Assembly: GCA_024403275.1 (NCBI GenBank) | Contig: JAKSSD010000014.1 | Location: 1-45,916 of the forward strand | DNA from: Lachnospiraceae bacterium | GTDB taxonomy: Bacteria; Bacillota; Clostridia; Lachnospirales; Lachnospiraceae | Direction: 5' to 3' | DNA: 45,916 nucleotides | In this document: positions 40 to 37,478 of the stretch, piece after piece | How positions within the stretch are numbered: the stretch's first letter is position 1 | Layout: each line of letters opens with the position of its first letter | Made by a program: the position numbers and the translations under genes | Notes under the pieces: model-generated | Seen by the model: only the letters and a program-made list of their open reading frames with translations | The model's database searches: none | Told to the model about the DNA's origin: nothing

Positions 40-449
40 GTACGGAGGAATATTGAATTTCCCGATTCTCTCCGTACTCCACTACCTATTCCAAACAAGT
101 TGTACGGAGATTTTGGCTTTTCACCCATTTCCTCCGTACCAGCTCCTTCTTGACCCTCACTACGTACGGAGGAATATTGGATTTCCCGGTTCCCTCCGTA
201 CTCCACCACCTATTCCAAACAAGTTGTACGGAGATTTTGGCTTATCTCCCATTTCCTCCGTACCCGCACAACACTGACGCCCACCACGTACGGAGGAATC
301 CTTCTTTTCCCGATTCTCTCCGTACTCCACTACCTATTCCAAACAAGTTGTACGGAGATTTTGGCTTTTCACCCATTTCCTCCGTACCAGCTCCTTCTTG
401 ACCCTCACTACGTACGGAGGAATCCTTCTTTTCCCGATTCTCTCCGTAC
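40..449. repeat. Tandem array of alternating inverted 8-mers, 62-bp period
   Basis: The 8-mer GTACGGAG occurs at 40, 102, 164, 226, 288, 350 and 412. Its reverse complement CTCCGTAC occurs at 70, 132, 194, 256, 318, 380 and 442. Each orientation therefore recurs every 62 bp without exception, and neighbouring sites start 30 or 32 bp apart. The sequence between sites alternates between two versions, giving a 124-bp higher-order repeat. Each forward/reverse pair could form an 8-bp stem with a 22-base loop. Short ORFs across the array have no ribosome binding site and I treat the stretch as non-coding. Positions 1-39 lack the 8-mer, so the left end of the array appears to be inside the window. 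The right end runs into the apgM terminator. Confidence 0.9.
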
Positions 450-468
450 TCCACTACCTACACACAAA

Positions 469-498
469 AAAAGGCACGAACCAAAGTTCGTGCCTTTT
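469..498 (-). terminator. Rho-independent terminator after apgM
   Basis: A perfect 9-bp stem (GGCACGAAC at 473-481, GTTCGTGCC at 486-494) has a 4-base loop and is flanked by A and T runs, so it could work in both directions. It lies about 70 bp downstream of the apgM-like stop codon on the minus strand. Confidence 0.85.
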
Positions 499-567
499 TA
501 TTAAACTGTCAATCTCATAGAATTCATCTATCAAAATCAAGTAATTAGTCTATCCAGATTAAGGAAT

Positions 568-1776
568 TTATTTATCAATCTCAAGGAAATGATTCATAAG
601 TAAGTATCCTTCATCGAAATAATTTTCAGTTTCTTTAGCATTCTTCTCGCAGTAGTTAACACCACCCTCAACTTCCATTGTTGAATCATATAACATATAC
701 GGAACTGCATCTGAAGTATGTGTACGAAGTCTTACTGGTGTTGGATGATCAGGAAGTACAAGAAGTCTGAAGTCTACGTCGCGTCCCTGAAGTTCTTCTA
801 CTAATGGTCCAACAATATATGAATCGATATTTTCAATTGCCTTAATCTTTCTTTCGTAACTTCCCTGATGTCCCATTTCATCTGGAGCTTCTACATGGAT
901 GTATACGAAATCATTTTCATCTTCAAGAAGAGCCTTAACAGCTGCATCCTTCTTACCTGTATAGTTTGTGTTAAGGCCACCATTTGCGCCCTCAACCTCA
1001 ATAACATTCATCTTGGCACCGATTGCTATACCCTTAAGAAGGTCTACTGCTGAAATCATAGCGCCAGTCTTACCTGTCTTTGTATAGAAATCATCAAGAA
1101 TTGGCTTAGTACCTGCACCCCAGAACCAACAGCAGTTAGCTGGATTAAGACCTGCTTCTTTTCTTGCCTTGTTAATAGGATGATCCTTAAGAATTCCATA
1201 ACTTACTTCCATCATCTTACGAAGCATAGCATCTTCTGGGAGATATTCTCCTACTACTCTGCCAAGTACATCGTGAGGAGGTGTAAGCTCTACAACCTTA
1301 CCCTCTTTCCAGATAAGGCAGTGACGATAACTTGTTCCTACATAGAATTTATAAATCTCATTCTCAAGTTCAGCTTTAACTGCATCAAGTAAGATTGCTG
1401 CATCTTCTGTTGAAATCTCGCTTGCTGAATGATCAATAATTGTCTGCTGTTCAAAAGGAACGTCTTCCTCTGAAATAGTAACCACATTGCATCTGATAGC
1501 AACATCAGTATCTTCCATATCTACACCGATGCTTAAAGCCTCAAGTGGAGAACGTCCTGAATAATAAATCTTTGGATCATAACCAAGAACTGAAAGATTT
1601 GCTGTATCTGATCCTGGTTTCATTCCCTTAGGAATAGTATGTACCATACCAATTTCTGAAACTCTTGAAAGAGTATCAATATGTGGTGTTTTTGCTACTG
1701 CAATAGGAGTTTTGCCTTCCAATTCATCGATTGGTTCATCAGCCATTCCATCTCCGAGCATTACAATGTACTTCAT
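568..1776 (-). CDS. apgM: Cofactor-independent phosphoglycerate mutase-like protein, proposed homoserine kinase
   Basis: This 402-residue protein belongs to the archaeal-type, metal-dependent phosphoglycerate mutase branch of the alkaline phosphatase superfamily. Visible signatures are the N-terminal LGDGMAD with metal ligand D9, the GSDTANLS segment with the likely phospho-accepting serine at about S62, and late metal-ligand motifs EAPDEMGHQG and LPDHPTPVR. A subfamily of these proteins in Bacteroides and Clostridia is annotated as a proposed homoserine kinase because it clusters with threonine genes. Here it lies 19 bp downstream of homoserine dehydrogenase in one transcript, which fits that role. 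Start: ATG with a GGAGG site. Substrate choice (3-phosphoglycerate or homoserine) cannot be settled from sequence. Confidence 0.85.
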   Translation of the reverse strand: MKYIVMLGDGMADEPIDELEGKTPIAVAKTPHIDTLSRVSEIGMVHTIPKGMKPGSDTANLSVLGYDPKIYYSGRSPLEALSIGVDMEDTDVAIRCNVVTISEEDVPFEQQTIIDHSASEISTEDAAILLDAVKAELENEIYKFYVGTSYRHCLIWKEGKVVELTPPHDVLGRVVGEYLPEDAMLRKMMEVSYGILKDHPINKARKEAGLNPANCCWFWGAGTKPILDDFYTKTGKTGAMISAVDLLKGIAIGAKMNVIEVEGANGGLNTNYTGKKDAAVKALLEDENDFVYIHVEAPDEMGHQGSYERKIKAIENIDSYIVGPLVEELQGRDVDFRLLVLPDHPTPVRLRTHTSDAVPYMLYDSTMEVEGGVNYCEKNAKETENYFDEGYLLMNHFLEIDK

Positions 1777-1795
1777 AACTTTCTTTAAGCCTCCA

Positions 1796-3004
1796 TTAGA
1801 ACATTCGAACGTAGTTGATTACATCTTCACCAAATGTTTCTACTACTTCGATAAATTTATCTTCTGTCATTTCTTTTGTTACAAATCCAGTTTCATCAGA
1901 AGCTTCATCAATATTAACTGTATTTTCAATTTCAAATGAAGCTGCAAATTTATCTTTAGCTGCATTGTTTACACGTACGAAATATGCAAATTTCTTATCT
2001 GCATCTGTAGCCATCTCAATAGCTTCATCTTTCCAGATACATGGAACATTCTTTCCAACATTCTTTGCACACTCAACAATATCAGCAACTACTGCAGAAG
2101 CTGTAGCAAGCTTACCAGCACCACGTCCGTAGAACATAACGTCCTCGACCATGTTACCAGTTACCATGATTCCATTAAATACATCTCTTACTCCGTAAAG
2201 AGGACTCTTTGCAGATACCATAAATGGTGCAACAAGTGCAAGGCATTTACCATCTAAATCTTTACTAATACCAAGAAGCTTAATTGAACGACCAAGTTCT
2301 GCTGCATACTTGAATTCCTTTGTAGTAATCTTTGTAATACCTTCTGTCTTGATATCTTCGTAGTTAACTGTCTTTCCCATATATAAAGAAGTAAGGATAG
2401 CAATCTTTCTACATGTGTCGTAACCACAAACATCTGCTTCAGGATTCTGCTCAGCATAGCCAAGTCTCTGAGCTTCCTTTAAGATTTCATCATAATCACA
2501 ACCTTCTTCATCCATCTTTGTAAGCATGAAGTTAGTTGTACCATTTAATATACCAATAATGCATTCAATATGTTCTGCTGTAAGGCATGTCTGTAAAGGA
2601 CGAATAATAGGAATACCACCACCTACACTAGCTTCAAACATATATGAACAGTTATTCTGTTCCGCAATTTTAAGAAGCTCTGGTCCATGAGCAGCAACTA
2701 AGGCCTTATTTGATGTACATACACTCTTACCGTTTTCAAGACAAGCCTTTGTAAATGTGTAAGCTGCACCAGTTCCTCCCATAGTTTCACAAACTATGCT
2801 CACTTCTGGATCCTTTACAATGATATCAAAATCGTGAATAACCTTATCTTCATAAGGGTCACCAGGGAAATCTCTTAAATCAAGAATGTACTTGACTGAC
2901 ACCTCATCGCCTGAATTATTCGCGAGTTCTTTCTTATTTCTTCCAATGATTTCTACAACACCGCTACCTACTGTGCCGTAGCCTAAAACAGCAACATGCT
3001 TCAT
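1796..3004 (-). CDS. hom: Homoserine dehydrogenase
   Basis: Reduces aspartate semialdehyde to homoserine with NAD(P)H, at the branch point to threonine and methionine. The protein (402 residues from the chosen start) opens with a Rossmann motif, GYGTVGSG, and contains the family segments GGGIPIIRPLQ and GILNGTTNFML. A longer reading frame would begin at 3046, but the ATG at 3004 sits directly behind an AGGAGA ribosome binding site and starts MKHVAVLGYG as in homologues, so I chose it. The tail after about residue 350 is short compared with forms that carry a full C-terminal ACT domain. It is co-transcribed with the apgM-like gene from a promoter at 3050-3078. Confidence 0.95.
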   Translation of the reverse strand: MKHVAVLGYGTVGSGVVEIIGRNKKELANNSGDEVSVKYILDLRDFPGDPYEDKVIHDFDIIVKDPEVSIVCETMGGTGAAYTFTKACLENGKSVCTSNKALVAAHGPELLKIAEQNNCSYMFEASVGGGIPIIRPLQTCLTAEHIECIIGILNGTTNFMLTKMDEEGCDYDEILKEAQRLGYAEQNPEADVCGYDTCRKIAILTSLYMGKTVNYEDIKTEGITKITTKEFKYAAELGRSIKLLGISKDLDGKCLALVAPFMVSAKSPLYGVRDVFNGIMVTGNMVEDVMFYGRGAGKLATASAVVADIVECAKNVGKNVPCIWKDEAIEMATDADKKFAYFVRVNNAAKDKFAASFEIENTVNIDEASDETGFVTKEMTEDKFIEVVETFGEDVINYVRMF

Positions 3005-3024
3005 ACACTTTTCTCCTCTAAATT

Positions 3025-3035
3025 GGCAAATTGCC
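3025..3035. promoter_or_regulatory. Small palindrome in hom leader
   Basis: GGCAA-A-TTGCC is a perfect 11-bp dyad between the predicted -10 box and the hom ribosome binding site. It could be an operator or be fortuitous. No T-box or riboswitch-like structure is evident in this short leader. Confidence 0.3.
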
Positions 3036-3049
3036 ACGAATAACAATGT

Positions 3050-3078
3050 ATTATACCATCCAAGCCCTCATTTTGCAA
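3050..3078 (-). promoter_or_regulatory. Sigma-A-type promoter of hom-apgM
   Basis: On the minus strand TTGCAA (3073-3078) and a perfect TATAAT (3050-3055) are separated by 17 bp. The promoter lies between the terminator of the upstream gene and the hom start. Confidence 0.75.
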
Positions 3079-3097
3079 CATTTCCTACTTACTACTA

Positions 3098-3133
3098 AAT
3101 ATAAAAGACTCCTTCCATTATTAAGAAGGAGTC
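3098..3133 (-). terminator. Terminator after the DUF6062-like gene
   Basis: A 9-bp perfect stem, GACTCCTTC (3107-3115) with GAAGGAGTC (3125-3133), is followed on the minus strand by a T-rich tract. It begins a few bases after the stop codon at 3141. Confidence 0.8.
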
Positions 3134-3140
3134 CTCTCTA

Positions 3141-3911
3141 CTATTTTTTCTGCTGATATACTGGGTCCGCTGGATATGAACCTTTAAGCTTTTGCATTCC
3201 TCTTTGAATTGCATCCTTGGAATTCTTCCAGTCCGCATCTTTATTCCTGTAATCAAACTTCTCAACTAGCCATGATACATCTTCCTGAAGTCTTTCCATA
3301 TTCTCTTTCATAAGAGGGAAAAGCATCGCGAAAAATTCTTCCTTTTGCTTATCATTAAGTCTTGTTTCTGCTGCCTCGCAAACATCGCCAAAATGAGTGA
3401 GACAAAAGCCCTTTGATTCTTTAACCTTCTGAACAAATTCAGGATCCTTTTTATACATAACGAAAAAGGTATCCAAATATCTTTCATACATTTCATTGAA
3501 AGAATTGCAAATATAACATGAATCTTCCTTAGTTCTTACCCATGCAGCCACAGAATTCTTCATTTCCTTCTGACCTGATGATTTAGAGAACTTAGATAAT
3601 ATAGAAGTTTTACCTGGCTTGTAAGCATCCATTTCCTTACTCATCTGATGTCTCATTTCCATATAATGAGTCTTAAGAATCCATGCATTTCCAAGGGTAT
3701 TTCCATAGTCAAACATTTTTTTGAAATGTGCTCTGCAAAAGCCTGCCTTGTCAGTCTTCTCTCTCATATCCGCTTCCATATAAGAAGAGCCTGAACCAAG
3801 AACTAAATCAAGTAAATCCTGTTCAACGTCTCTCTCGACGAAGCAGAATGGACACTCATCTTTAGCATTCATGGCATCATTCATTGGTATAGTATACAAT
3901 TTTTCTTTCAT
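3141..3911 (-). CDS. DUF6062-like protein with duplicated Cys/His site
   Basis: A 256-residue soluble protein of unknown function that resembles the DUF6062 family common in Lachnospiraceae. Eight putative metal ligands form two matching sets: C20/C23 with C59/H62, and C132/C135 with C170/H173. Each set is C-x2-C, then 34-35 residues, then C-x2-H, which suggests an internally duplicated zinc-binding module. There is no signal peptide or membrane segment. Start: ATG after AGGAGA. It follows the beta-CASP hydrolase gene by 44 bp with no terminator between, so the two are probably co-transcribed; a terminator follows it. The family call is from memory of the pattern, and the function is unknown. 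Confidence 0.7.
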   Translation of the reverse strand: MKEKLYTIPMNDAMNAKDECPFCFVERDVEQDLLDLVLGSGSSYMEADMREKTDKAGFCRAHFKKMFDYGNTLGNAWILKTHYMEMRHQMSKEMDAYKPGKTSILSKFSKSSGQKEMKNSVAAWVRTKEDSCYICNSFNEMYERYLDTFFVMYKKDPEFVQKVKESKGFCLTHFGDVCEAAETRLNDKQKEEFFAMLFPLMKENMERLQEDVSWLVEKFDYRNKDADWKNSKDAIQRGMQKLKGSYPADPVYQQKK

Positions 3912-3955
3912 CTGTTGTCTCCTAACATCAGCTAACCATTATGGTAGGCTTTATT

Positions 3956-5557: not shown

Positions 5558-5611
5558 ATTTTGCCCCCCTATATTAATTTACGACTTTAATATCTATAAA
5601 TAGATATTATT

Positions 5612-5640
5612 ATTATAGCATTTTAAGCCTTGTATTTCAA
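5612..5640 (-). promoter_or_regulatory. Promoter of the beta-CASP hydrolase gene
   Basis: Minus-strand TTGAAA (5635-5640), 17-bp spacer and TATAAT (5612-5617). The leader that follows contains an 8-bp inverted repeat AATATCTA/TAGATATT (about 5589-5608). Confidence 0.75.
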
Positions 5641-5674
5641 ATTTGTTTTTATAATATGAAACCTCATTTTATAT

Positions 5675-7006
5675 TTATTTTTTAAGTTTTTCTGGCAGTA
5701 GCGGATTATCTTTCATACGACTTCTATTTATCTCTTCTGAATAATCTGCATCATATTCAACTCTTACCGCCATAATTACCATTCTGTTTGTTTTATTTCC
5801 ACTTTTTTCCTTTGAACAACTAGAAAGAGTAAGATATGTATCCTCTATCCCTCTGTCAATGGGGACCTCGAACCAGTTTCTTGCCTCCACATTTTCCATA
5901 TAAGCCTTAAACTCCTTTTTCGAATTGAATTCACAATCCTCGTCATAATTAAATGCATTTTCATCTTCATTGCACACTAAATAATAGGCAAATATAAGCC
6001 ACTTGCAGTTACCCTTATCTGTAACTGTTTCTATGTAAGGATGCTCTTTATAGTATTCAATATCCTCATACTGACAAAGGCTTCCAAACACATCATTATC
6101 ATCAAGCCTATGCCCGTAAATAACGCTGTTGCCACCACTTTCTTCAATATCATCATAAGATTTGATAAATGGCACTCCATGGCTATTGTATTCCCTATTT
6201 AAATCATGCCACAAATAGAACCCATCATCACTGCTTCTCATTAAAGGATGATTAAGCTTACTTCCATCTATTCTTATAAGACCATAAACCTCATCATTTA
6301 GCTTCCTGTAATCATTTAAAAGCTTAACGTCCTTCTTTACCTTCGTAAAAAAAGCATCCTGGTTTTCATCAATCACCCTTTCTGCCTCATATTCATACTT
6401 AGCTACTATTCCATTCTTCTCATTTCTAATAACATAAACTGCAAGCTTCCCTTCATCGCTATTCTTCCAGTAGGAATCAACTATAGATAATCTGCCAGTA
6501 TTCAAACCCGCTAAAGAGGTAATCGTACTCTCATGTCCTTCCCACTCTGGCTTATTGCTGTCCACCTTCAAAAAATCAAGATCATACATTTCCTCTTCAT
6601 TATCGTCAGTCACAAGAATTTCAAATTCAAATTCCTCAATCCAGGATTTTTCCTTATCTACCCCTGTTTCAACTAACCTGGCAATTATATTTTCATCCTC
6701 ACAGGAAACCTGATTATAGCAGGCTACTGATTTGAATTCTAAAACCTCATCCTCATTTTCCAGATAGTCATAATCAACAAGCTTAACCTTTTCCTTCTTA
6801 AAGCTTGCCGCTTCTGAAATGTTTGTGTCGTTAATTTTCTTATTAAAAACCAGATTTTCTATCCTTTTAAAATTATTAATAACATTTTTTGCCTGATACG
6901 TATCCGTTCTTCGATTAATAACATTACAAGCAGTTAACGTCATAACAATGAAAAAACTCGCAATAACAATTTTCTTAAATTTATTTTTTCTTGTCTTTCT
7001 TCCCAT
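5675..7006 (-). CDS. Class B sortase with lipobox-like N-terminus
   Basis: A 443-residue sortase; the transpeptidase domain occupies roughly residues 235-420. Catalytic residues are visible: H299 in YGH, C397 in TLSSC, and R408 in NRMVIMAVRV. The LSSC form replaces the usual T in TLxTC. Class B is supported by the insertion between the His and Cys motifs and by the overall length. The first 27 residues are basic, then hydrophobic, then LTAC, which matches a lipobox with C27; most sortases instead keep an uncleaved membrane anchor. About 200 residues of charged, unassigned sequence precede the catalytic domain. The gene overlaps the end of the SpaA-like gene by 26 bp, so that protein is the probable substrate. 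Confidence 0.85.
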   Translation of the reverse strand: MGRKTRKNKFKKIVIASFFIVMTLTACNVINRRTDTYQAKNVINNFKRIENLVFNKKINDTNISEAASFKKEKVKLVDYDYLENEDEVLEFKSVACYNQVSCEDENIIARLVETGVDKEKSWIEEFEFEILVTDDNEEEMYDLDFLKVDSNKPEWEGHESTITSLAGLNTGRLSIVDSYWKNSDEGKLAVYVIRNEKNGIVAKYEYEAERVIDENQDAFFTKVKKDVKLLNDYRKLNDEVYGLIRIDGSKLNHPLMRSSDDGFYLWHDLNREYNSHGVPFIKSYDDIEESGGNSVIYGHRLDDNDVFGSLCQYEDIEYYKEHPYIETVTDKGNCKWLIFAYYLVCNEDENAFNYDEDCEFNSKKEFKAYMENVEARNWFEVPIDRGIEDTYLTLSSCSKEKSGNKTNRMVIMAVRVEYDADYSEEINRSRMKDNPLLPEKLKK

Positions 7007-9818
7007 TTTTTAATAACCCCACTGAAACGATTAACGCGATAAGAAGTAAACCTGCTCCAAGAATATATTTTTTGTTAAAGCCATTATTCTCATCAATAAG
7101 AATTGAATAACCCTCAACACCATTATCATCTGTCTGATAATTATTCTTTATTACCTTCTTTGAGGACACACCCTTAACTATGGTCTTTCGTTTCTTATCT
7201 TTCTTCTCTTTTGGCAGCTTTTTATCATGAATGGTTATCTCTGAAACCAGTTTTTGCAGGTTTTCCTCATTATCGAAATTCACCATGAACTCTTCTTCAT
7301 TTATTTCATATCCTTCAGGTGCAACTATTTCTTTTACAATATATTTGTTTTTTGTTAAATCAAGATTAAACTTTGAAATTCCTTGATCATCCTTATTGGA
7401 GACTCCTAAGAATTCACCAGATTTTACAATTACATCACCATCCATATTTTTAATATCTTCTCCAGCATAAATTGCAAAATAAGCCCCTTTTAGTCTCTCA
7501 TTTGTATCCTCATCAACCTTGTTTACAAGCACCTCATAACGTTTTCTAACGTTCTCTACATTAATATATTTGCTGCTATCAGATTGACCTTTTATTGAAA
7601 ATTCTTTAATAGAATCATCTTCCATAAAGCCATCTGGAACACTTATTTCTTTAATATAATAGTCACCAATAACGAGCGGTTTCTTATCTGAAGAATAACA
7701 AGCCTCGCCATTTTCATCCGTAATTATGCTCGCGATGAGGGTATCCTTTTCATAAGCTACTACTCTTTTACCCTTCTCATCCTTACTTCCATCAGGTAAA
7801 TAAATATCATTTTTCGCATAAATCCCAAATTCAACTCCATCAAGTGGCACGTATTTATATACAAATACTGCATTTGATCCTTCCTTTTCATCTCCTATCT
7901 TTACCTCTGACAATTTTTCTCCGGTTTTCTTGATATACAACTTCCCTTTAACTGTTTCGTTCTTAAAATCTACGGATATTACATTCTCTTTAATCTTCTC
8001 ATCATAAACACTTTTACTATCCTCATTTATTTCTATCTCAACATTTTTGTTGGCCAACACATAACCCTTTGGAGCTGTTTTTTCTTCAATTCTATATTTT
8101 CCTGCCTCAAGATATACTGAGCTATAAGCATGGCCATCAGGTCCCGTTTTTATATTTTCCTCAACGTATTTACCTCTGGTAAGATCATAAATACTAAAGA
8201 CTGCATTTTGATCACTATTTAAGCAAATTAGCTTTTTAGAAGTCTCATCAACCTTGTTAATTCTAAATTTAATTTTATAGTAATCGTCCGGTATATTCAG
8301 TGTTTTGTCAATCATACTACTAATTCCACTATCAATAGTCACTTCATAATCATCAGCCGCCAAATAATTCTTAGGAACCACACTTTCATGCACAATATAA
8401 GTGCCGTAGGGTAAATCTATCGTTCTTAAATATCCATTTGAGTCTGTATAAAGAATCGTTTCACCCTTACTTCCTATAGGCAAAGGATTAGAATTTTTAT
8501 AATCATATTTACCATTAACAATCCTCATATCAGATTTAAGATAAACACTAAATCCAGCTCCCTTTACCTTTGTATTCCTATCACCCGATTTGTATTTAAC
8601 TATTTCAATTGGAGCCATAATAATGTCATCACTAGCAGACACCTTAATCTCCATAGCCGTTGCCTCTCCTTGTGGAAGCTTTAATTCCGCCTCGATAATC
8701 TGATCATTTAACTGATAACCCTCTGGTTCTTTTGATTCTACTAGGTAATATTTGCCTGCATGAAGGCCATTTATTTGTCCTATACCACTTTCATTTGTAG
8801 TAATTGTCGCAATATAATCATCTTTTTCGTAGAAAATTCGCCCTGTAAGCTCATTTTTAATAGTTTCCTTCGCATATAACTGATATTCGCTCCCCTTTAA
8901 ACTCGCATTTCCCTTAAAACTATCATTTCCTCTTGAATCAGATTTTTGGAAGAAAAGACTGCCAAGTATTTCATCATCATACCTTTCCAAGCTTTGATTA
9001 TCCGATAAAGATACCTTTATAACCGAATTATCTAATTTATATCCTTTCGGAGCGCTTGTTTCCTTAATGTAAACATATTTATCACTCTTTTCAAACTCAG
9101 CTATAGTCTTTCCATATCCATCCGTTTTAGTCATCGTTTTAATAAGTACCGTGCAGTTTTCATCTTCATAAATTGAATATTCTGCTCCTGGAAGGCAATC
9201 TTCATTTATATCCTTCTTGGTAATCTCAATCTGTATTTTCCCTGGTTTTCTCGAATATGACGCCAGATATCCAATATCCTGATAAGAATTAAATGTGGCG
9301 ATTTTTACAGTCCCCTTGAAGTCCGTTTCCCAGGCTGCTCTTACAAAATCTCCTAATCCACAGGCTTCAAACTGTTCATCTGTTAAACCTGTGATGTCAT
9401 TAATGGTATTGTTCATCTGGGCGTTACTCATATAGGCATATCCTGCAGCAATATGCGTATATATATACCGCTCCTTCTCCGACGCTCCAGGGAAATAAAT
9501 CGGCGTCAAATCATTCGGTCCGCCATATCCACAAGCTAAAACCTTAACGAGAAGTGGATATCCATCGCTTCCTTCTGAACTTATTTCCTTAGCCTCATAT
9601 GTACCATTGGAAGTTGGTCCAAGTTTAGGCTGTAAACAATAAGCGAGTTTACCATCCATATAGAAATAATGCGTCATATAAGTGAATCCATTTGGATATT
9701 TTAAACCCTCTCCGACAGTTACATTTACGCTCTCTGCCCTTGCCGTAATGGACGAAAGCAACACAAAAAGACCAATAAGTATGGTCAGACTTTTTCTTAA
9801 AGCCTTAAAAATCTTCAT
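6981..9818 (-). CDS. SpaA/Cna-B-type surface protein (pilin-like adhesin)
   Basis: A 945-residue secreted wall or pilus protein. Residues 1-28 form a signal peptide ending ARA. An N-terminal thioester-domain-like segment follows: C61 in YCLQP, and a later YTHIAAGYAY in which H122 sits where thioester domains usually have glutamine. Six Cna-B/SpaA-like domains then run at about 190-275, 285-390, 400-500, 512-605, 625-745 and 755-855. Most contain a YxI-type strand, KE or EE, and an AP-x-GY-like closing turn. The C-terminus has one hydrophobic segment and a Lys-rich tail, but no LPxTG. Start: ATG after AGGAGG, with a strong promoter about 100 bp upstream. The class B sortase gene overlaps its 3' end. 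Confidence 0.85.
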   Translation of the reverse strand: MKIFKALRKSLTILIGLFVLLSSITARAESVNVTVGEGLKYPNGFTYMTHYFYMDGKLAYCLQPKLGPTSNGTYEAKEISSEGSDGYPLLVKVLACGYGGPNDLTPIYFPGASEKERYIYTHIAAGYAYMSNAQMNNTINDITGLTDEQFEACGLGDFVRAAWETDFKGTVKIATFNSYQDIGYLASYSRKPGKIQIEITKKDINEDCLPGAEYSIYEDENCTVLIKTMTKTDGYGKTIAEFEKSDKYVYIKETSAPKGYKLDNSVIKVSLSDNQSLERYDDEILGSLFFQKSDSRGNDSFKGNASLKGSEYQLYAKETIKNELTGRIFYEKDDYIATITTNESGIGQINGLHAGKYYLVESKEPEGYQLNDQIIEAELKLPQGEATAMEIKVSASDDIIMAPIEIVKYKSGDRNTKVKGAGFSVYLKSDMRIVNGKYDYKNSNPLPIGSKGETILYTDSNGYLRTIDLPYGTYIVHESVVPKNYLAADDYEVTIDSGISSMIDKTLNIPDDYYKIKFRINKVDETSKKLICLNSDQNAVFSIYDLTRGKYVEENIKTGPDGHAYSSVYLEAGKYRIEEKTAPKGYVLANKNVEIEINEDSKSVYDEKIKENVISVDFKNETVKGKLYIKKTGEKLSEVKIGDEKEGSNAVFVYKYVPLDGVEFGIYAKNDIYLPDGSKDEKGKRVVAYEKDTLIASIITDENGEACYSSDKKPLVIGDYYIKEISVPDGFMEDDSIKEFSIKGQSDSSKYINVENVRKRYEVLVNKVDEDTNERLKGAYFAIYAGEDIKNMDGDVIVKSGEFLGVSNKDDQGISKFNLDLTKNKYIVKEIVAPEGYEINEEEFMVNFDNEENLQKLVSEITIHDKKLPKEKKDKKRKTIVKGVSSKKVIKNNYQTDDNGVEGYSILIDENNGFNKKYILGAGLLLIALIVSVGLLKNGKKDKKK

Positions 9819-9922
9819 AAATACCTCCTGAAATTTATACTCTAAGAAAAATATGTCAATTATTTCAGACCTTATAGTCTATTTTTATGGGAATCATCTT
9901 AAGATTTTAGGATGTGAGATTT

Positions 9923-9951
9923 AATATACTTATCTTTATCCTCAATGTCAA
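9923..9951 (-). promoter_or_regulatory. Near-consensus promoter of the SpaA-like/sortase operon
   Basis: Minus-strand TTGACA (9946-9951), 17-bp spacer and TATATT (9923-9928). The predicted leader is about 100 nt, long enough for regulation, but I recognise no riboswitch in it. Confidence 0.8.
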
Positions 9952-9970
9952 CTGACATTTTGTACAAATA

Positions 9971-10025
9971 AAAAAAGTGCCCAAGATGAAAACTTTCCTC
10001 AAAAGCCCATGCTTACGCACTTTTT
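9971..10025 (-). terminator. Long-loop terminator after the 5-formyl-THF cyclo-ligase gene
   Basis: A 9-bp stem (AAAAAGTGC at 9972-9980, GCACTTTTT at 10017-10025) encloses a 36-base loop and is followed on the minus strand by a T run. It is the first hairpin after the stop codon at 10047. Confidence 0.6.
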
Positions 10026-10046
10026 ACTTATCAATACCGTTTTTTA

Positions 10047-10592: not shown

Positions 10593-10603
10593 ATTCACCC
10601 CAA

Positions 10604-11053: not shown

Positions 11054-11087
11054 TTATTCCTCCAACACTTCCTACATTAATTACTTA

Positions 11088-26196: not shown

Positions 26197-26209
26197 AGAA
26201 AACTTAATA

Positions 26210-26758: not shown

Positions 26759-26785
26759 TGTAATCCTCCTCTGTTAACCGAAAAT

Positions 26786-26806
26786 TGCCTCCCGTATTGG
26801 GAGGCA
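26786..26806 (-). terminator. Terminator after the large lipoprotein gene
   Basis: A perfect 8-bp stem, TGCCTCCC (26786-26793) with GGGAGGCA (26799-26806), has a 5-base loop and T4 on the minus strand, about 20 bp after the stop codon at 26828. Confidence 0.8.
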
Positions 26807-26827
26807 GTTTCCTTAATCTAATATTTT

Positions 26828-29377: not shown

Positions 29378-29415
29378 TTCTTTTCTCCTTCCCCGTTAAA
29401 AAAATAACATACGTG

Positions 29416-29444
29416 ATTATATACCATATTGCTATAAATGTATA
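29416..29444 (-). promoter_or_regulatory. Possible promoter of the large lipoprotein gene
   Basis: A perfect minus-strand TATAAT (29416-29421) lies 17 bp from TATACA (29439-29444), a 4/6 match to the -35 consensus. Confidence 0.5.
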
Positions 29445-29453
29445 TACACCACA

Positions 29454-32400
29454 CTACTTAATTATTTCTTCACCGTCATCCGAAATGCTGTAAAGACCTT
29501 TCTGTTCACCATAGCATATAGCTTCTCTCACAGACTGATTAAGAGCTGCGGACAATTTTTTAACGCCGAAAAATTCTCCAGTTTTTCTGATACAGTCTTC
29601 CATTGCAATTCTTTCATTTGCATATACTATCTCGGTAACAGCATTTACAATTTCCTGCTTGCAGATTTCATTTATAGGTCTTGCATTCTTTGAATCTGCT
29701 GGAATTCTGTAAATGTCATAAGCCTCCATATCCTGACCTTTAAGCCAGTAGAAAGTCTCGCCAGCACTCATGTTTACATTAATAAGGTCGTCCTTAACCA
29801 GACCATCTAACAATTCTACGATTCGGTTTTCTGATTTTGTGGACATTTTTGTAATTTCATAAGCAGCCATTACTTTTCTCATCAATGCCTTTTTCGCAAT
29901 TGGAGCTTCTACATTCATGATATTTTCAATCTCTCTCATAATTCTCTTATCATGACCACGGCTATAGAAATCTTCATTGTCGCCAAGAATATTTACAGAA
30001 TAAATTTCAAGTTCTCTTCTGTTTGGATGTGCATCCTCTTCAGTTTCAACCTGATTTTCAATTAAAGCTTCTTTAATTTTCTCTTCGTTAGCTTCTTTCT
30101 TTTCTTCTTCCCATGGCTCGTCTGTCATGGACTTTTCTATAGCTGCCACAATCTTTTCGTACTCTTTATCTTCTGTATCGAACCAGTCGAGAGTCCAAAC
30201 TCTGTGAAGCTTCCATCCAAGTCCCTTTAATACCGAAGGTTGAAGAATATTTCTATCCCTTGCAAGCTCGCTGTCATAATAATTCTCTCCATCAAGAAGA
30301 ATACCAAGACAATATTTATTCTCATCCTTAGGATCTACAATACCTATATCAAGACGGAACTCACTTGAACCAACATTAAGATTTGCCTTGTAGCCATCCT
30401 TTCTAAGTCTGGCCTTAATAGCTTCAGCCACATCGCTGTTTCTCTTCTTAATAAGTTCATTTCTTGCAAATAAAGCATTCTTGCCATGTGCAGCAAATTC
30501 AAGGAATCCCTTAAGACCTATTACACCTTCCGCCTGAGTTCTTTGTATATCAATCTGCTCTGGACGAATTGTTGAATAAATAAGCATCTGCTTTCTTGAT
30601 CTTGAAATAGCAACATTAAGTCTTCTCCAGCCACCATCCTGATTAAGTGGACCAAAATTCATGCTCACCTTTCCTGTCTCATCAGGTCCGTAGCAGATAG
30701 AGAACATAATTACGTCTCTTTCATCACCCTGTACATTTTCGAGATTCTTTACAAATATAGGCTCTTCCATTCCCTGAGCATAAATCTCAATTTCTGGCTC
30801 CTTATGAAGTTCATCCTGAAGTAAATCTTCAATATAAGCCTGCTGAACCTGAGAGAATGTAACTACACCGATAGACTCTTTTCTTCTCTTTTCATCCTTA
30901 AGTCTGGTCATAATCTCAGCAACAATTGCCTCAGCCTCGGCTCTGTTTACCTTCTGACGGCCCCTTTCATAGGCTCCATCCACCTGAATCAATTTAACTT
31001 CACTTACAAGGTCATTTGGTGAAGGGAATGTGTAAAGTTTGTTATCATAATATTTAAGGTTACTGTAAGCAATAAGACTTTCATGTCTTGAACGATAATG
31101 CCATAAGAGGTGTTTACTTGGCATTGATACTGCCAAACAGTCATCAAGAAGACTTTCCATGTCATTATATTCATAGGTTTCTTCATCCTCATGATTAGTC
31201 ATGAAGAAGCTTGTAGGAGGAAGCTGTTTTGGATCACCTACTACAATTACATTTTCACCTCTTGCTAATACACCTACTGATTCAGAAGTAGGAAGCTGTG
31301 ACGCCTCATCAAAGATTACCAAATCAAATTTAGGGAATGATGGGTCAATATACTGAGCAACTGAAATAGGGCTCATAAGCATACAAGGACACATCTTTCT
31401 AAGAAGTGTTGGAATCTCGTTGAATAACTTTCTAATTGGCATTGCACGAACACCTGATTTAATAGCCTTTTGAAGAATTCCCATAGCTGAAGAAGCAACA
31501 ATATTGTCGCTAATCTTAGGAATATTCTCTGATAATCTGGCTGCAACTTCTTTTCTTGTAAGTTCTTCAAATTCATCATTTACAGCTTTAAATCTTTCAA
31601 TAACTGCAGTAAATGATGAGCCGTTAAAGCCCTTCAATACCTCTGATTCATTAATAGCTTTAAGCGCTGCTGCCTTACCAAAATTAGCCTTAAATGCATC
31701 TGTGAGTTCACTTGCGTAAAGACTTCCATTTCTAACTGCCTCAAAAGCTTCACCAAGGCCAGCATCTTCAATCTTTTTCTCGATAGAACAAAGAGATGAA
31801 TAGCTTCTCATTTCTTCTTTATTATCAAGAGCGATATTAATATCATCTCTCATTGTCTGAATATAATCGTTTGCATCATTAAATGCTACAAGCTTAAGAC
31901 CATATGAAGACATAAGCTTTGACTCACTGATTGCTACATTTTCACTCTTAGCTATATAGTCAGCCAGATTATCTCTTTTATCCCCATTAAGTGCTGCTAC
32001 AATCTTACCTGTTAAAGCTTCTGCATCTTCCTTATCTGGGCAAAGACTTATTGCCTTGACAAACTGCTCAATCTGCTCAAGTTTAACTTCAACCTGATCC
32101 CAGTCAGTATTTTCTTCTCTATAGAGGTCGCCAACAATTTCCTTCATCAAATCATCAAGAACACACTTCTTTTCAAGTTCCTTATATTCCTCTATCTGAA
32201 GGTAAATATCTGATAAATTGTCTTCCTTGATGCTTGCTGGATTTACAGCCATAAATCTCAATTCCTTGAGAAGGCTATTAATCTCCATTTTCTTAGCCAG
32301 AGCCCATTTACCCTGTGCTGTTACAAGTCTGTTTCTCGCACTTGCTATATCGTATGCAAATATTTCATTCTTATATGATTCCTTAATGGTTTTCTTCATG

Positions 32401-35276
32401 GAATCAAGAGTTTTATTCTCTGCAATCTTTCCATAAATCTCATTCTTAAGATTTTCATATTCTTCCAGGGTATCAAGGCAAGCTGGAAGATTCTTAATAT
32501 GCATACCCTTCTTAAGAGCCATCTCAAGCCAGGTAATATAGTCGCGAGTATACTTTCTGTCACTTTCAATTCCAATATTTAACAAGGTCTCATTAAGACT
32601 AGTCTTAAGTAATGCTAAATTTTCCCTGAATGCTTCAAGTTCTTTAACCCAATTATCTCTTACTTCCTGTGAGTAATTCTCAATCACATAAGATTTAAGA
32701 GGATGCTCTGTAACATCTCCAATCTCATTAACGACTACATAATAATCTTCAAGAAGCTCAACTATTTCTGAATATTTATTCGCATCAATAGTATCAACAA
32801 ACTCATTTGAAATCTGGATTTTACCTGCAAGCTCTGCATTACTTTCATAATCACCTATAAGCTCATAAACACTTCTATCGCACTTAGTTTTACCATGAAG
32901 CGCTATAACTATATCATTAAGCTTATTTCTTAATTCATAGAGCTCATCTGCCTTTAATGCATATTTATCATTATGTCTTCTGTCAGCTTCCTTTAAGCTT
33001 CGCTCAAGCTGTGCAAGAACCGCTGATTTCTGTGCCTTATTAGAATGAAGTTCAAGGCAGAATGCCCCTAAGCCAACCTTCTCTAAACGATTCTGAACAA
33101 CAGAGAGAGCTGCCATTTTATCAGCTACAAATAATACGCTCTTTCCCTGATATAAAGCATTTGCAATCATATTGGTAATAGTCTGTGATTTACCTGTTCC
33201 CGGAGGTCCATGAAGGACGAAGCTCTCTCCCATAGAAGAAGCCTGTATAGCCTTCATCTGTGAAGCATCCGCTGAACATACTACTGCCATATCTGATGGT
33301 TTAACTGTTGAATCCAAATCTTCAATAGAATCAAAATCAACTGGCTGCCACTCAAGCTGTCCTGATAAAAGACTCTTAACTACCTTATTGCCAAGAATAT
33401 CCTCTGATCTATTCTTAAGATCATTCCACATGATAAATCTTGAGAATGAGAACACTCCCACAAATGCATAATCCAAAACATCCCAGTGGGCTTTTGACAT
33501 AACTGATTTTCTTATTGTATTAAGAATCAACTGAATATCAATTCCATTCTCATCTACTGGAAGTGGATCAAGTCCACCTATATCCATACCAAAATTTTGT
33601 CTCAAATATTCAAGCATGGTAATATTTATCATTGATTCCTCATCACGAATTCTTATATGATAAGCCTTATCCTGTAATTTCTTAACAACATCTACAGGAA
33701 CAAGAATCAATGGTGCATATCTTTCTTTTTCTGAAATATCACTCTCATACCATTTAAGGAATCCAAGAGCCAGATAGAGCGTATTTGAACCATTCTCTTC
33801 AAGACTTAATTTAGCCTGTCTTGAGAGTTGCTTCATTGAAACCTCAAGATCTCTCTCATTTAAGAAAGCTCTCACTCTGTTAGCCTTAAAATCATCCTCT
33901 TCTGATGCCTTAAGGTATTCTCTTATTTCTCCTATATTAAAAATCTTGCTTTCCTCTGGTTTAAGAGTTCCCTCACCCTTAAATGGATGTACGCTTAAGG
34001 ATTCGCCCTGATTTAATACATCCTCAAATCTTGCAATATCACTTGATGCAAGCTGAACAAAGCTCTTAGTAACTCTGAAATTAATAAGTGGATTTCTAAG
34101 GGATAAATCAAGAAGCTTTCTCTCCCACATTTTCTGCTTAGTCATTACATTTTCAACTGCCTGAGCATTAATTCCTGCTGTTGAAAGTTCCTTAGGCATT
34201 TCAGTTTTTTCTTCAACCTTGAATTCAACTACCTTGTAGCTTCCATCCTCTAATACTCTGCTTGGAAGAGGTAAAATCTTATTTCCACGACATCTCTTGA
34301 TATCAATAGCCATTTCAAAATCCAAAGCCTGTTCAATCTTAGCCTGAGCAGCCTTTGTTGCCTCTTCAAATGACATAGATGAACCTACTGCCAAAGCAGT
34401 ACACTCAACTAACATTATTTCATCTATACCTGCCGCAATTCTCTTACTAATAGCTGCAGGATCTTCCTCAATACAATCTGGGAATGTCAAATCCTCCAGC
34501 CAGCATCCAACATAAGCATGGCCCTTCATAAGCATAATAAGTGGATTAAGTCCCATTGCTTCAAGAATAGATGCCATAAATGTTGTAAGATCAAGGCAGT
34601 TACCAATCTTTTGAGCGATAATTTCATCTGCTGTTCTTATTCTCTGTCCGATTTCTTCAAAAGAAGCCTGTCCAACTGCATAAGCAATTCCTTCTTTTCT
34701 TAAAACCTCATAAGCTGCTGCCATCTGATATTTAACTGTGTTCTTATTCTGTGTCTGATATCCAGTAATGCTTGGTGTCTGTTTCCACTCCTCTAACTGC
34801 TTAATGCAAAGAGGTAAAATATTACTTACATCAGAATGATTAGGCATTACAAATGAAGCCAAATATTCAGGATTTTCAGCCATTCCACCCCACTGATTAT
34901 ATGGAAGAATCTCTATTGTTTCCGTGGTCTCATAAATGACTTTGTCCTCATAATTTCCTTCTTCATTTTTAACTCTGGCCACAACGGAAAAAAGAAGGTT
35001 GCCAACAACCTTCTCTGTAATATTAGCCAGATAATCTCCATTTACTTCCACATCCAATTCGCTAACTTCAATCTTTGCTCCTGCGTTGAAGTTAGTTACT
35101 GTAGTTTCCTTTACAGTTGCAAAATCAGGTGAAGACTCCATTCTAAGGATTACATCTCCATAGTCCTCTTCAGTATCATTGCTAAGTCTTATGTACTGAA
35201 TAGTCTTAACACTGTTTTTTACCAAAGCATAATTAATACTTTTTCTGTGTGAAACAAGCATGTTGATATCGCTCAT
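29454..35276 (-). CDS. DUF4011-type SF1 helicase with transglutaminase-like and Vsr-like nuclease regions
   Basis: A 1940-residue multidomain protein. A transglutaminase-like fold is suggested by C227 (GNCLDLTTF) and H253 (KGHAYVGCWL). A DUF4011-like segment follows from about 380 (WERKLLDLSLRNPLINF). The SF1 (UPF1-like) helicase has Walker A GPPGTGKS at 690-697, Walker B FDEASQLP at about 1323, GDPKQLPP, and motifs VQGDERDV and NVAISRSR. A Vsr/MTES_1575-like nuclease segment is centred near 1660 (FRLDIGI, DGENYYDS, WKLHRVWTLDWF), and a DUF3320-like region lies near 1780-1850. Such proteins are suspected of roles in anti-phage defence or nucleic-acid quality control; neither is shown here. 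Start: ATG after GAGGAG, 14 bp after the HD-GYP gene. Confidence 0.85.
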   Translation of the reverse strand: MSDINMLVSHRKSINYALVKNSVKTIQYIRLSNDTEEDYGDVILRMESSPDFATVKETTVTNFNAGAKIEVSELDVEVNGDYLANITEKVVGNLLFSVVARVKNEEGNYEDKVIYETTETIEILPYNQWGGMAENPEYLASFVMPNHSDVSNILPLCIKQLEEWKQTPSITGYQTQNKNTVKYQMAAAYEVLRKEGIAYAVGQASFEEIGQRIRTADEIIAQKIGNCLDLTTFMASILEAMGLNPLIMLMKGHAYVGCWLEDLTFPDCIEEDPAAISKRIAAGIDEIMLVECTALAVGSSMSFEEATKAAQAKIEQALDFEMAIDIKRCRGNKILPLPSRVLEDGSYKVVEFKVEEKTEMPKELSTAGINAQAVENVMTKQKMWERKLLDLSLRNPLINFRVTKSFVQLASSDIARFEDVLNQGESLSVHPFKGEGTLKPEESKIFNIGEIREYLKASEEDDFKANRVRAFLNERDLEVSMKQLSRQAKLSLEENGSNTLYLALGFLKWYESDISEKERYAPLILVPVDVVKKLQDKAYHIRIRDEESMINITMLEYLRQNFGMDIGGLDPLPVDENGIDIQLILNTIRKSVMSKAHWDVLDYAFVGVFSFSRFIMWNDLKNRSEDILGNKVVKSLLSGQLEWQPVDFDSIEDLDSTVKPSDMAVVCSADASQMKAIQASSMGESFVLHGPPGTGKSQTITNMIANALYQGKSVLFVADKMAALSVVQNRLEKVGLGAFCLELHSNKAQKSAVLAQLERSLKEADRRHNDKYALKADELYELRNKLNDIVIALHGKTKCDRSVYELIGDYESNAELAGKIQISNEFVDTIDANKYSEIVELLEDYYVVVNEIGDVTEHPLKSYVIENYSQEVRDNWVKELEAFRENLALLKTSLNETLLNIGIESDRKYTRDYITWLEMALKKGMHIKNLPACLDTLEEYENLKNEIYGKIAENKTLDSMKKTIKESYKNEIFAYDIASARNRLVTAQGKWALAKKMEINSLLKELRFMAVNPASIKEDNLSDIYLQIEEYKELEKKCVLDDLMKEIVGDLYREENTDWDQVEVKLEQIEQFVKAISLCPDKEDAEALTGKIVAALNGDKRDNLADYIAKSENVAISESKLMSSYGLKLVAFNDANDYIQTMRDDINIALDNKEEMRSYSSLCSIEKKIEDAGLGEAFEAVRNGSLYASELTDAFKANFGKAAALKAINESEVLKGFNGSSFTAVIERFKAVNDEFEELTRKEVAARLSENIPKISDNIVASSAMGILQKAIKSGVRAMPIRKLFNEIPTLLRKMCPCMLMSPISVAQYIDPSFPKFDLVIFDEASQLPTSESVGVLARGENVIVVGDPKQLPPTSFFMTNHEDEETYEYNDMESLLDDCLAVSMPSKHLLWHYRSRHESLIAYSNLKYYDNKLYTFPSPNDLVSEVKLIQVDGAYERGRQKVNRAEAEAIVAEIMTRLKDEKRRKESIGVVTFSQVQQAYIEDLLQDELHKEPEIEIYAQGMEEPIFVKNLENVQGDERDVIMFSICYGPDETGKVSMNFGPLNQDGGWRRLNVAISRSRKQMLIYSTIRPEQIDIQRTQAEGVIGLKGFLEFAAHGKNALFARNELIKKRNSDVAEAIKARLRKDGYKANLNVGSSEFRLDIGIVDPKDENKYCLGILLDGENYYDSELARDRNILQPSVLKGLGWKLHRVWTLDWFDTEDKEYEKIVAAIEKSMTDEPWEEEKKEANEEKIKEALIENQVETEEDAHPNRRELEIYSVNILGDNEDFYSRGHDKRIMREIENIMNVEAPIAKKALMRKVMAAYEITKMSTKSENRIVELLDGLVKDDLINVNMSAGETFYWLKGQDMEAYDIYRIPADSKNARPINEICKQEIVNAVTEIVYANERIAMEDCIRKTGEFFGVKKLSAALNQSVREAICYGEQKGLYSISDDGEEIIK

Positions 35277-35290
35277 TTTATTCTCCTCTT

Positions 35291-36925
35291 TTACATTGAT
35301 GCTTCTTTTAGATTTTTAAAGAATATATCCAGTATATATCCCTCGAAATGAGAGTCCTTCTCTTCCATCATGATTTCCTTTGCCTTTTCATGGCTAAAAG
35401 CTTCCTTATAACTTCTCTCAGAAGTAAGGGCATCGTAAACATCCGCTACCGCCATAATTCTTGCTGACAAAGGAATTTCTTCAGCCTCCAAGCCCTCAGG
35501 ATAACCCGTGCCATCCCATCTTTCATGATGATAAAGAGCAATATTTTTTGAAATACTAATATATTTATCTGACTCTACCTGCTTAAGCGAAGATGTAATA
35601 ATATTGGCACCGTTAACCGTATGCTTCTTCATTATTTCAAATTCTTCTGCATTAAGCTTACCCTTTTTACCAAGAATCGTATCAGGCACTGATATCTTAC
35701 CTATATCATGAAGTGGCGCTGCATTTATTATTATAGAAGCAGTCTCTTCATCAATTCTATCCTTATACTTGCCTTCTTTTCTTAAGGCATCGACAATTAT
35801 TTGAACGTAATCCTTGGTGTTTTTGATATGAGAACCTGTATATCCATCTCTGGCTTCAACCATGTCCGCCATTGACAAAATAACCGAAGACTGAATTCTC
35901 ACAAGATCTCTTTCCTTCTTATTTACCTCAGACTGAAGATTCATATTAGTCTTATAGGAATCCGTAACATCCTTGAAGAAATATACCTCTCCCCTGTGTT
36001 TCTTACGAATCACAATCTGCATTGTGGATACTTCGTAAATCTTTTTCTTGCTATGAATTATTTTTTCTTTCCTTGGGTCGATCAAAAGATCATCTAAGGT
36101 TCTTATTCCAGATACCTCTAATTCATTGAAAAGATCTTTCGCTATACCGTTATAGTAAAAGATTTCCTTATTATCTTCCATAACAGCTATGATTCCTTCA
36201 TCTATTGCATCAATCATGTACTGCTTAACAACCTCAAGGCTTTCAAACATATTGAATTCAATCATACATATAAAGAAGATAATTCCATCAATAAGGAAAG
36301 CTAAGGATGTCGTATCATATCCATTTGTAAGCTTTAAGTTAAATGCAAATAATGCAACTAAAGAAATTACTGAAATAAGGATAATACATATAAGCTGTTT
36401 TTTCTCTTTTGTTGTCTTGATATATCTGATTCTTCCTATTGCTACCGAGCACACAATCAGCTGATAAATAACTGACTGCGCAATAAAAGCAAACCATAAT
36501 GGACCATGAATATACTTATTATGTGGGAAAAATCCGCTATCACTAACAAAAATTCGGTCTATATAAAACAATGAGTTGAAATCACTAGTTGCTACAAGTG
36601 CAAATACTGCAAATGCAGATACATATACAAATACTATTAGTATCCTCTTAAATTTCACCTGACAAAGCTGCAGAGAGAATAAGAACATAGAGGCACATAT
36701 AAAGGGCTTACCTAAATACGTGACTATAGTTCCATAAAAGCACAAATCTCCATTTGAGCTTATCATTTCAAGAAGGTAACCTACATTATTTACAATTATC
36801 GCAACTGCACATATAAAGAAATAAATGTGATCACTGCTTGACCAGTATTTAACTATGTAATAAGCGATAACAAACATCAAAAGAATACTTGTTATCTGAA
36901 TTACTATTAACGCTTCGTGCATCAT
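35291..36925 (-). CDS. HD-GYP domain protein with multi-pass membrane sensor
   Basis: A 544-residue protein. About seven transmembrane helices lie in residues 5-225, of the type found at the N-terminus of some histidine kinases. A PAS-like segment (IDEGIIAVMEDNKEIFYYN) follows at about 237-330, then a short coiled coil, then an HD-GYP domain at about 345-540. Metal-site motifs HDIGK and HHERWDGTGYPEGL are intact, so cyclic-di-GMP phosphodiesterase activity is plausible. Two adjacent ATGs (36925 and 36922) are both usable behind AGGA. It has its own promoter and probably shares a transcript with the large helicase, though a functional link is not established. Confidence 0.85.
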   Translation of the reverse strand: MMHEALIVIQITSILLMFVIAYYIVKYWSSSDHIYFFICAVAIIVNNVGYLLEMISSNGDLCFYGTIVTYLGKPFICASMFLFSLQLCQVKFKRILIVFVYVSAFAVFALVATSDFNSLFYIDRIFVSDSGFFPHNKYIHGPLWFAFIAQSVIYQLIVCSVAIGRIRYIKTTKEKKQLICIILISVISLVALFAFNLKLTNGYDTTSLAFLIDGIIFFICMIEFNMFESLEVVKQYMIDAIDEGIIAVMEDNKEIFYYNGIAKDLFNELEVSGIRTLDDLLIDPRKEKIIHSKKKIYEVSTMQIVIRKKHRGEVYFFKDVTDSYKTNMNLQSEVNKKERDLVRIQSSVILSMADMVEARDGYTGSHIKNTKDYVQIIVDALRKEGKYKDRIDEETASIIINAAPLHDIGKISVPDTILGKKGKLNAEEFEIMKKHTVNGANIITSSLKQVESDKYISISKNIALYHHERWDGTGYPEGLEAEEIPLSARIMAVADVYDALTSERSYKEAFSHEKAKEIMMEEKDSHFEGYILDIFFKNLKEASM

Positions 36926-36946
36926 TTTTTATCCTGCCCATTTAAT

Positions 36947-36975
36947 TTTATACTTTTAAAATTAAAACCGAACAA
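36947..36975 (-). promoter_or_regulatory. Promoter of the HD-GYP/helicase transcript
   Basis: Minus-strand TTGTTC (36970-36975), 17-bp spacer and TATAAA (36947-36952). It lies between the 63-bp repeat array and the HD-GYP start. Confidence 0.55.
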
Positions 36976-37025
36976 ATCCCAACTTCTACGCAATCTATTA
37001 ACTCCCTATTTACAAAAGTGTTCCT

Positions 37026-37478
37026 ATGGTCCATTTCCCTCGGAAGTTACAATTTTGGACCATTTCGTACTATAGCTTTCACTTATTCATGGTCCATTTC
37101 CCACGGATGTTACAATTTTGGACCATTTCCTACTATAGTTTTCACTTATTTATGGTCCATTTCCCACGGATGTTACAATTTTGGACCATTTCGTACTATA
37201 GATTTCACTTATTTATGGTCCATTTCCTACGGATGTTACAATTTTGGACCATTTCCTACTATAGTTTTCACTTATTTATGGTCCATTTCCCACGGATGTT
37301 ACAATTTTGGACCATTTCGTACTATAGATTTCTCTTATTCATGGTCCATTTCCTACGGATGTTACAATTTTGGACCATTTTGTACTATAGATTTCTCTTA
37401 TTCATGGTCCATTTCCCACGGATGTTACAATTTTGGACCATTTCGTACTATATATTTCTCTTATTCATGGTCCATTTC
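37026..37478. repeat. Tandem array of alternating inverted 7-mers, 63-bp period
   Basis: ATGGTCC starts at 37026, 37089, 37152, 37215, 37278, 37341, 37404 and 37467: exactly 63 bp apart, seven full units plus a partial one. In each full unit TGGTCCA is followed 29 bp later by its reverse complement TGGACCA (first pair 37027 and 37056), then 34 bp to the next unit. Units are nearly identical, with scattered changes. Because 63 is divisible by three, plus-strand frames stay open across the array, but I see no ribosome binding site and regard it as non-coding. It fills the gap between the HD-GYP promoter and the uridine phosphorylase gene. Confidence 0.92.

Follow-up and report, generated by a model that had tools for sequence, protein, structure and literature searches.

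Tandem arrays of alternately facing short cores adjoin genes of a PD-(D/E)XK-type nuclease-like protein family in Lachnospiraceae

The DNA stretch analysed here (the window, 45,916 bp) is the entire contig C46 (JAKSSD010000014.1) of a gut-type Lachnospiraceae bacterium (GCA_024403275.1, here G000; 2.47 Mb in 179 contigs) and carries two tandem arrays of short, alternately facing cores: array 1 (40..449) and array 2 (37026..37474). Arrays of this architecture adjoin genes for a family of small proteins with a C-terminal PD-(D/E)XK-type nuclease domain, an association in which we place high confidence. As judged from sequence comparison, the arrays probably represent the DNA half of a two-part repeat-plus-enzyme system in which each protein is specific for the core of its own array. 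The best reading is a system resembling REPIN/RAYT that would employ an unrelated enzyme and phased double-stranded sites. No description of such a system was found in the open-access literature (PubMed Central, without preprints), and novelty is claimed to that extent.

Array architecture and the adjoining protein family

Array 1 comprises 7 units of 62 bp with 14 exact, alternately inverted GTACGGAG cores, located on the forward strand at 40, 102, 164, 226, 288, 350 and 412 and on the reverse strand at 70, 132, 194, 256, 318, 380 and 442 (start-to-start steps of 30 and 32 bp); by chance, 0.16 sites would be expected in the window. It may alternatively be described as dimeric, two types of 62-bp unit making up a repeat of 124 bp (TRF period 124 bp, 87 % matches). 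Array 2 has 63-bp units and 15 alternating TGGTCCA/TGGACCA cores at 37027-37474 (steps of 29 and 34 bp, spacing GGACCA-N27-TGGTCC); the TGGTCCA-type word is found 24 times in the window, 15 of these inside array 2, versus 3.1 expected. Since the core TGGWCCA is nearly its own reverse complement, "orientation" in array 2 hangs on one central base. The original prediction of two arrays with a period of 62-63 bp, opposite-facing cores and about 30-bp spacing is thus borne out exactly, as is the dissimilarity of their cores and spacers; a core common to both arrays does not exist. Chance as the source of the arrays was rejected by shuffled and expected-count controls.

A search of the source genome with array 1 (E<=0.001) yielded 24 matches, including array 1 itself and one hairpin-only match, which were grouped manually into ~18 arrays on 16 contigs. 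Array 1 lies at a contig end, as do 16 of the 18 places of its family, some of which may be two halves of a single array; phased arrays seem to break assemblies. The exact two-core unit of array 1 is present in 58 copies in this genome (backward control, 0), and unit types are common to different loci at 77-93 % identity, pointing to descent of the family from one array. At their edges the arrays decay into degenerate units, as seen by eye. Array 2 has a single relative in the genome, located on contig C57.

The strict array-1 pattern (three cores) was absent from all 144 relatives and from the contigs of the GTDB species collection, which may omit the organism's own or very near records. Arrays of relatives were detected by scanning congener stretches for layout rather than for sequence. 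Congener G005 has the same architecture with the core GCGCGTAG/CTACGCGC (period 63) and with a second core, TACGGGT/ACCCGTA (period 62). In a first layout scan (half-spacings 22-45 bp; the window, 329 kb of own DNA, 313 kb of congeners and three G005 loci), all chains of at least 4 alternating sites had a period of 62-63 bp, and no such chain was present in 788 kb of named loci around the phosphoglycerate mutase gene that flanks array 1 or in locally shuffled DNA. Under wider spacing, extra 4-site matches in L190 at 17346 (period 59) and in L154 at 3338 (period 62, unequal halves) were taken as chance. The longest arrays extend over ~900 bp with 30 sites. With ~18 array-1 relatives and the congener arrays, the two arrays of the window are neither the only ones, nor is the agreement of their periods attributable to chance.

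For the association test, genes were collected by protein search, and 800 bp on each side were scanned for alternating inverted 8-mers with one mismatch allowed. An array of at least 6 sites was found within 800 bp of 44 of the 71 family genes (29 upstream, often within ~100 bp of the start codon, and 15 downstream) as well as at 4 of 9 further full-length members. Among 936 control pieces (800 bp each, taken from named loci), none had at least 6 sites (20 had at least 4), none of 140 shuffled flanks had a 6-site array, and no arrays were present in the available flanks of 10 proteins sharing only the nuclease domain. One genome of a related family (G128, L259-L271) has 17 family matches; at the 13 loci examined, arrays were 3' of the genes where found, mostly with longer units (64-103 bp). 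Contig C21 of G005 carries two array types, each adjoining its own paralog of the 265-residue protein. The expectation of a class of elements built by a common mechanism has therefore held up, in that many arrays with many cores adjoin one protein family. That the core differs from locus to locus needs correction, since several loci of a genome have the same core; it is with the cognate gene that the core differs.

The source genome encodes two family members, on contigs C99 and C79. A GTACGGAG array (C99:6984-7268), of the same family as array 1, is located directly 5' of the C99 gene, just before the ribosome-binding site. The C79 gene starts ~186 bp from the contig end, and this stretch contains GGACCA-N27-TGGTCC, i.e., the core and gap of array 2 with an unrelated spacer. 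Within ~385 kb of own DNA, this motif was found only in array 2 (7), on C57 (2) and on C79 (1). By these matches, the two arrays of the window appear to belong to the two paralogs of the genome, array 1 to that on C99 and array 2 to that on C79.

Members of the family are standalone proteins of ~265 residues. A protein search detected relatives in 43 of 145 genomes; within the genus, 14 of the 31 genomes (own included) have them. In a phylum sample, 15 of 398 genomes had a match, which was full-length in only 5, all of the organism's own family and including its own genome; the remaining 10 had the nuclease domain alone. Family f8 of the same order has full-length members as well. For the members scanned, Pfam and NCBIfam provided no family (best chance-level E 0.0039 and higher), PHROGs weak matches only (best E 0.0017) and PDB no sequence match (best E 0.068 and 0.86). 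The C-terminal half matched the PADLOC candidate PDC-S68 in all five members scanned (E 6e-26 to 8e-30, best model) and HEAT_CxxC_PDDEXK in four of the five at E<0.1 (best 2.7e-7); it also aligned by profile with the C-terminal domain of eight long open reading frames (ORFs) on viral contigs over 128 columns (99.9 %). Residues E165, P194-D195 and E210-H211 are invariant in 19 members and are candidate catalytic residues. Profile homology together with this conserved acidic motif assigns the family to the predicted members of the PD-(D/E)XK superfamily. On viral contigs, the domain was found in long ORFs only, two scans with single full-length proteins gave no relative, and no array was found in phage record MT839528.

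Core matching and helical phasing

Seven close proteins adjoin arrays with the cores TACGCGC, TACGGGC or TACGGGT. Across residues 32-80 of these proteins, pairs with a common core have identities of 71 % or more and pairs with different cores of 57 % or less, the limits of this segment having been set post hoc on a pattern first noticed by eye; across residues 131-265, different-core pairs reach up to 96 % identity (TACGGGC in G023 vs TACGGGT in G005). Residues 32-80 thus appear to track the core while the nuclease domain does not, which acts as a natural recombination test.

Arrays with the core TACGGGY are present in 8 of the 31 genomes of the genus, 5 of which have a gene whose own array has this core. 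Away from the gene, such arrays were found in 4 of the 5 genomes with a matching gene vs 3 of the 26 others (861/169,911, ~0.005, calculated by hand). Arrays of AAGCATCA were found only in G004 and G015, both of which have the gene; they are gene-adjacent in G015 and mostly so in G004. Some array loci have orthologues in other species. Of four such pairs that were aligned, two differ cleanly by ~62 or ~124 bp, i.e., by whole units, with the cores in register, while the other two were muddled by repeats. L333, L334 and L339 represent one orthologous array locus in three congeners, at which some units of G023 have TACGGGC where G005 has TACGGGT, as if the cores at one locus followed the genome's own protein.

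Periods of arrays with at least 6 sites cluster near 53, 62-64, 72-75 and 83-86 bp, with singles at 60, 95, 103 and 106 bp. Modulo 10.5 bp, the Rayleigh R is 0.78 for 44 arrays and 0.89 for 22 core-distinct arrays (p ~2e-8), with ill-fitting periods (e.g., 60 and 103) kept in both counts and with relatedness of the arrays inflating such p-values. For the 45 arrays of the tree set, from which genes with fewer than 90 matched profile positions had been dropped beforehand, R is 0.805 at 10.5 and highest at a modulus of 10.95 (0.841). On the 75-protein tree, no fewer than 25 changes are needed to account for the turn classes ("none" included), and 5 gains or losses for the 7-turn label by itself. 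Unit lengths therefore appear to be near whole helical turns, and such spacing favours a protein bound along one face of double-stranded DNA over a function as RNA. This lends support to the earlier suggestion of a scaffold for a regularly spaced DNA-binding protein.

Surroundings of the arrays and comparison with known systems

Array 1 begins just past the T tract of an intrinsic-terminator-like hairpin (466..499, minus strand) that belongs to the flanking gene for 2,3-bisphosphoglycerate-independent phosphoglycerate mutase (568..1776, minus strand). Relatives of the mutase are mostly labelled Lachnospiraceae, the closest one (89 % identical) being from the metagenome-assembled genome Tb.RUG.345. 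In the closest named relative (L063), no array lies beside the same gene; the mutase is directly followed by an aspartokinase-like gene (named from its translation), which was not found in the own-genome stretches examined. Arrays in G000 are intergenic and often located straight after a terminator. All 14 flanking genes (at least 100 residues) of 12 arrays point the same way relative to the array, the count leaving out L153 (orientation marker absent) as well as L150 and L151 (flanking ORFs below 100 residues).

Array 2 is carried by an element of 563 bp (37002..37564) resembling miniature inverted-repeat transposable elements (MITEs), with the ends CTCCCTATTTACA and, as reverse complement, GTCCCTTTTTACA. 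It is flanked by an apparent 8-bp target duplication, TCTATTAA (36994..37001 and 37565..37572, read by eye). A second copy on C57 has the same inverted ends and its own 8-bp flanking duplication TAAGAATA (by eye). Terminal inverted repeats, target-site duplication and two copies, as recognised by eye, agree with a MITE, and identical ends with separate duplications imply that the array-2 family probably moved as a transposon-like unit. Differing from MITEs, the core layout also occurs in arrays outside such elements, and ends or duplications of this kind were not seen for the array-1 family.

Further features of the window are a 1940-residue protein (29454-35276, minus strand) with DUF4011, AAA helicase-type domains, an MTES_1575 restriction-type nuclease domain and DUF3320, which looks like a large helicase-nuclease defence candidate, and a probable surface protein of 945 residues (6981-9818, minus strand), in which a thioester domain (TED_2) is combined with repeated SpaA folds. 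A tandem repeat (36 and 75 bp) at 40746-41026 encodes an N-terminal part of a P-type ATPase ORF; from its consensus it is probably rich in His, Asp and Cys and perhaps metal-binding. The gene for an MCP-type chemotaxis receptor has four 28-bp tandem AT-rich units at its 3' end (43076-43186).

REPIN/RAYT systems (REPtron; BIME) resemble the arrays in having a short, conserved, species-specific core arranged in inverted pairs with spacers that are less conserved, extragenic copies scattered over the genome and a dedicated enzyme gene beside some of these; the conserved pair, the more variable spacer and the scattered extragenic copies were likewise found here. Co-evolution of enzyme and repeat, as described in PMC8266576, is a further likeness, and so are the regular tandem arrays of repetitive extragenic palindromes (REPs) of one Pseudomonas genome, which have a single orientation in each half of the genome according to PMC3116915. 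They differ in that the enzyme is of the HuH type there and of the PD-(D/E)XK type here, and in that the present arrays have cores of 7-8 bp, near-whole-turn unit lengths and commonly great length. By eye, neither the GTAG/CGTC tag nor the palindromic REP hairpin of 20-40 bp was recognised; the 7-8-bp cores are mostly not self-palindromic, hairpins form only between neighbouring cores, and the cores examined share no tag. By its enzyme, the present system would fall outside the REPtron family.

A RAYT as array neighbour was considered and rejected. In G000, Y1_Tnp is found only at C129:14016, where a piece of array lies at the opposite contig end (~14 kb away), and at C93:14049, on a contig without array-1 match. 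All eight Y1 (IS200/IS605-like) matches in G005 (L376, L381-L386 and one more) are contig-end fragments and not beside listed arrays. These Y1-type transposase fragments represent an assembly-breaking insertion sequence.

Other known systems have single features in common with the present one. PDC-S68, PDC-S69 and HEAT_CxxC_PDDEXK of PADLOC have a homologous C-terminal nuclease domain, the PDC-S68 models being 1202-1273 positions long. Free-standing homing endonucleases are encoded by small standalone genes with their own recognition sequence nearby, but destroy one site, whereas many tandem sites are kept here. CRISPR (clustered regularly interspaced short palindromic repeats) and TIGR-Tas loci have a repeat array beside a nuclease gene; they differ from the present arrays with their alternating inverted cores, near-copy spacers and whole-turn periods.

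Proposed system, alternatives and significance

In the proposed system, the N-terminal region of the protein would read the core, and the C-terminal part would provide the nuclease domain. The protein may bind the cores as a row of alternately facing sites on one face of the helix, neighbouring bound cores being about three turns apart in the families with 62-63-bp units. Less firmly, one may speculate that the protein initiates recombination by nicking or cutting the DNA, whereby whole units are gained or lost and a new array is seeded now and then. Arrays would in that case spread as non-autonomous repeats that need the protein, much as a dependence of REPINs on RAYTs is assumed. Mobilisation by the nuclease is plausible, at about even chances, since array 1 spread within one genome (the pattern being absent in 30 congeners) while the cognate gene stayed single, comparable to REPINs with one RAYT.

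Several observations weigh against this proposal. No 6-site array was found at 27 of the 71 genes and at 5 of the 9 further ones, and short flanks at contig ends account for some of these genes, not for all; in family f8, arrays are 3' of the gene in several members and were not found in others. The genomes are mostly drafts with arrays at contig ends, and the 936 control pieces were arbitrary, mostly coding DNA rather than matched intergenic sequence. G007, G009 and G026 have TACGGGY arrays without a detected gene; in G026, the array occupies a contig end and can be aligned with the region next to the gene in G005, so that the gene of G026 may be missing from the assembly. G020 and G015 have only a gene-adjacent array of their own core, and G025 has no exact AAGCATCA array despite a gene near-identical to that of G004. 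In favour of the proposal, the core of the array-1 family is exact in 144 of 151 sites, compared with 83-91 % conservation per spacer column, but these sites were selected with at most 2 mismatches, which favours conserved cores. Common ends or target duplications of this family were not seen by eye among the few arrays with both flanks present, contig ends truncating the rest, and an ordinary transposase may have moved the array-2 family, whose element has ends and target duplications of its own.

The arrays could instead be operators, by which the protein regulates its own gene and a regulon, scattered arrays marking other control regions. Their upstream position in 29 of 44 cases, often close to the start codon, would be compatible with this, as would the single polarity in G000, where the array is 5' of the gene on one side. 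Such a function is nevertheless unlikely, given arrays of up to ~900 bp and 30 sites, their frequent location right behind the terminator of the previous gene, a 3' position in 15 of 44 cases and the invariance of the candidate catalytic residues in 19 members. It is also improbable that the arrays belong to a defence module, in which a nuclease held on chromosomal arrays would act on invading DNA carrying or lacking the core. The matches of the nuclease domain to the C-terminus of PDC-S68 and to HEAT_CxxC_PDDEXK as well as the patchy distribution (43 of 145 genomes) would agree with defence. The domain is, however, all that the family has in common with those large PADLOC proteins, and a constant partner gene was not identified (no systematic search was made). 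Moreover, the matches on 7 plasmids extend over no more than 77 % of the protein, for the most part the domain, and are to genes annotated as AAA ATPases or helicases or to unannotated genes, and the 8 viral-contig matches are in ORFs of 747-1353 residues. Three phage records also matched, one of which (unverified, from faeces) covers 93 % and another 69 %.

An array of guide or hairpin RNAs (CRISPR-, TIGR- or REPIN-like), whose cores form hairpins in RNA or single-stranded DNA, has very little probability. Inverted cores do form hairpins more readily than shuffled sequence does (z -1.9 to -4.5 for six units of the window), but any inverted pair folds as a hairpin, and whole-turn unit lengths are without evident reason in a single strand. 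Furthermore, no Rfam match reached the gathering threshold in the window and six loci, and, in contrast to CRISPR, the spacers of one array nearly repeat one another. Hardly credible at all are ordinary minisatellites or MITE cargo that are alike by chance: array 2 does lie inside a MITE-like element, and tandem repeats often expand by slippage, but the association with one protein family, the core matching and the quantisation of periods all stand against it.

The proposed core-specific repeat-plus-enzyme system ties hitherto unexplained bacterial tandem repeats to one unnamed protein family and points to phasing on the double helix as a constraint on repeat evolution. On present evidence, it is an even bet that the family acts as a genomic symbiont, i.e., that a PD-(D/E)XK family with an exchangeable recognition segment of ~50 residues maintains and spreads its own helically phased arrays, each lineage having its own word and segment and core changing together. 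If true, a small protein segment and a site of 7-8 bp would be linked by a natural code that can be read, and the 22 core-distinct natural protein-array pairs provide material for deciphering it. Family and arrays would also form a selfish or domesticated repeat system parallel to REPIN/RAYT, working on double-stranded DNA, and hence an independent system for the question of how small repeats persist and spread with one enzyme.

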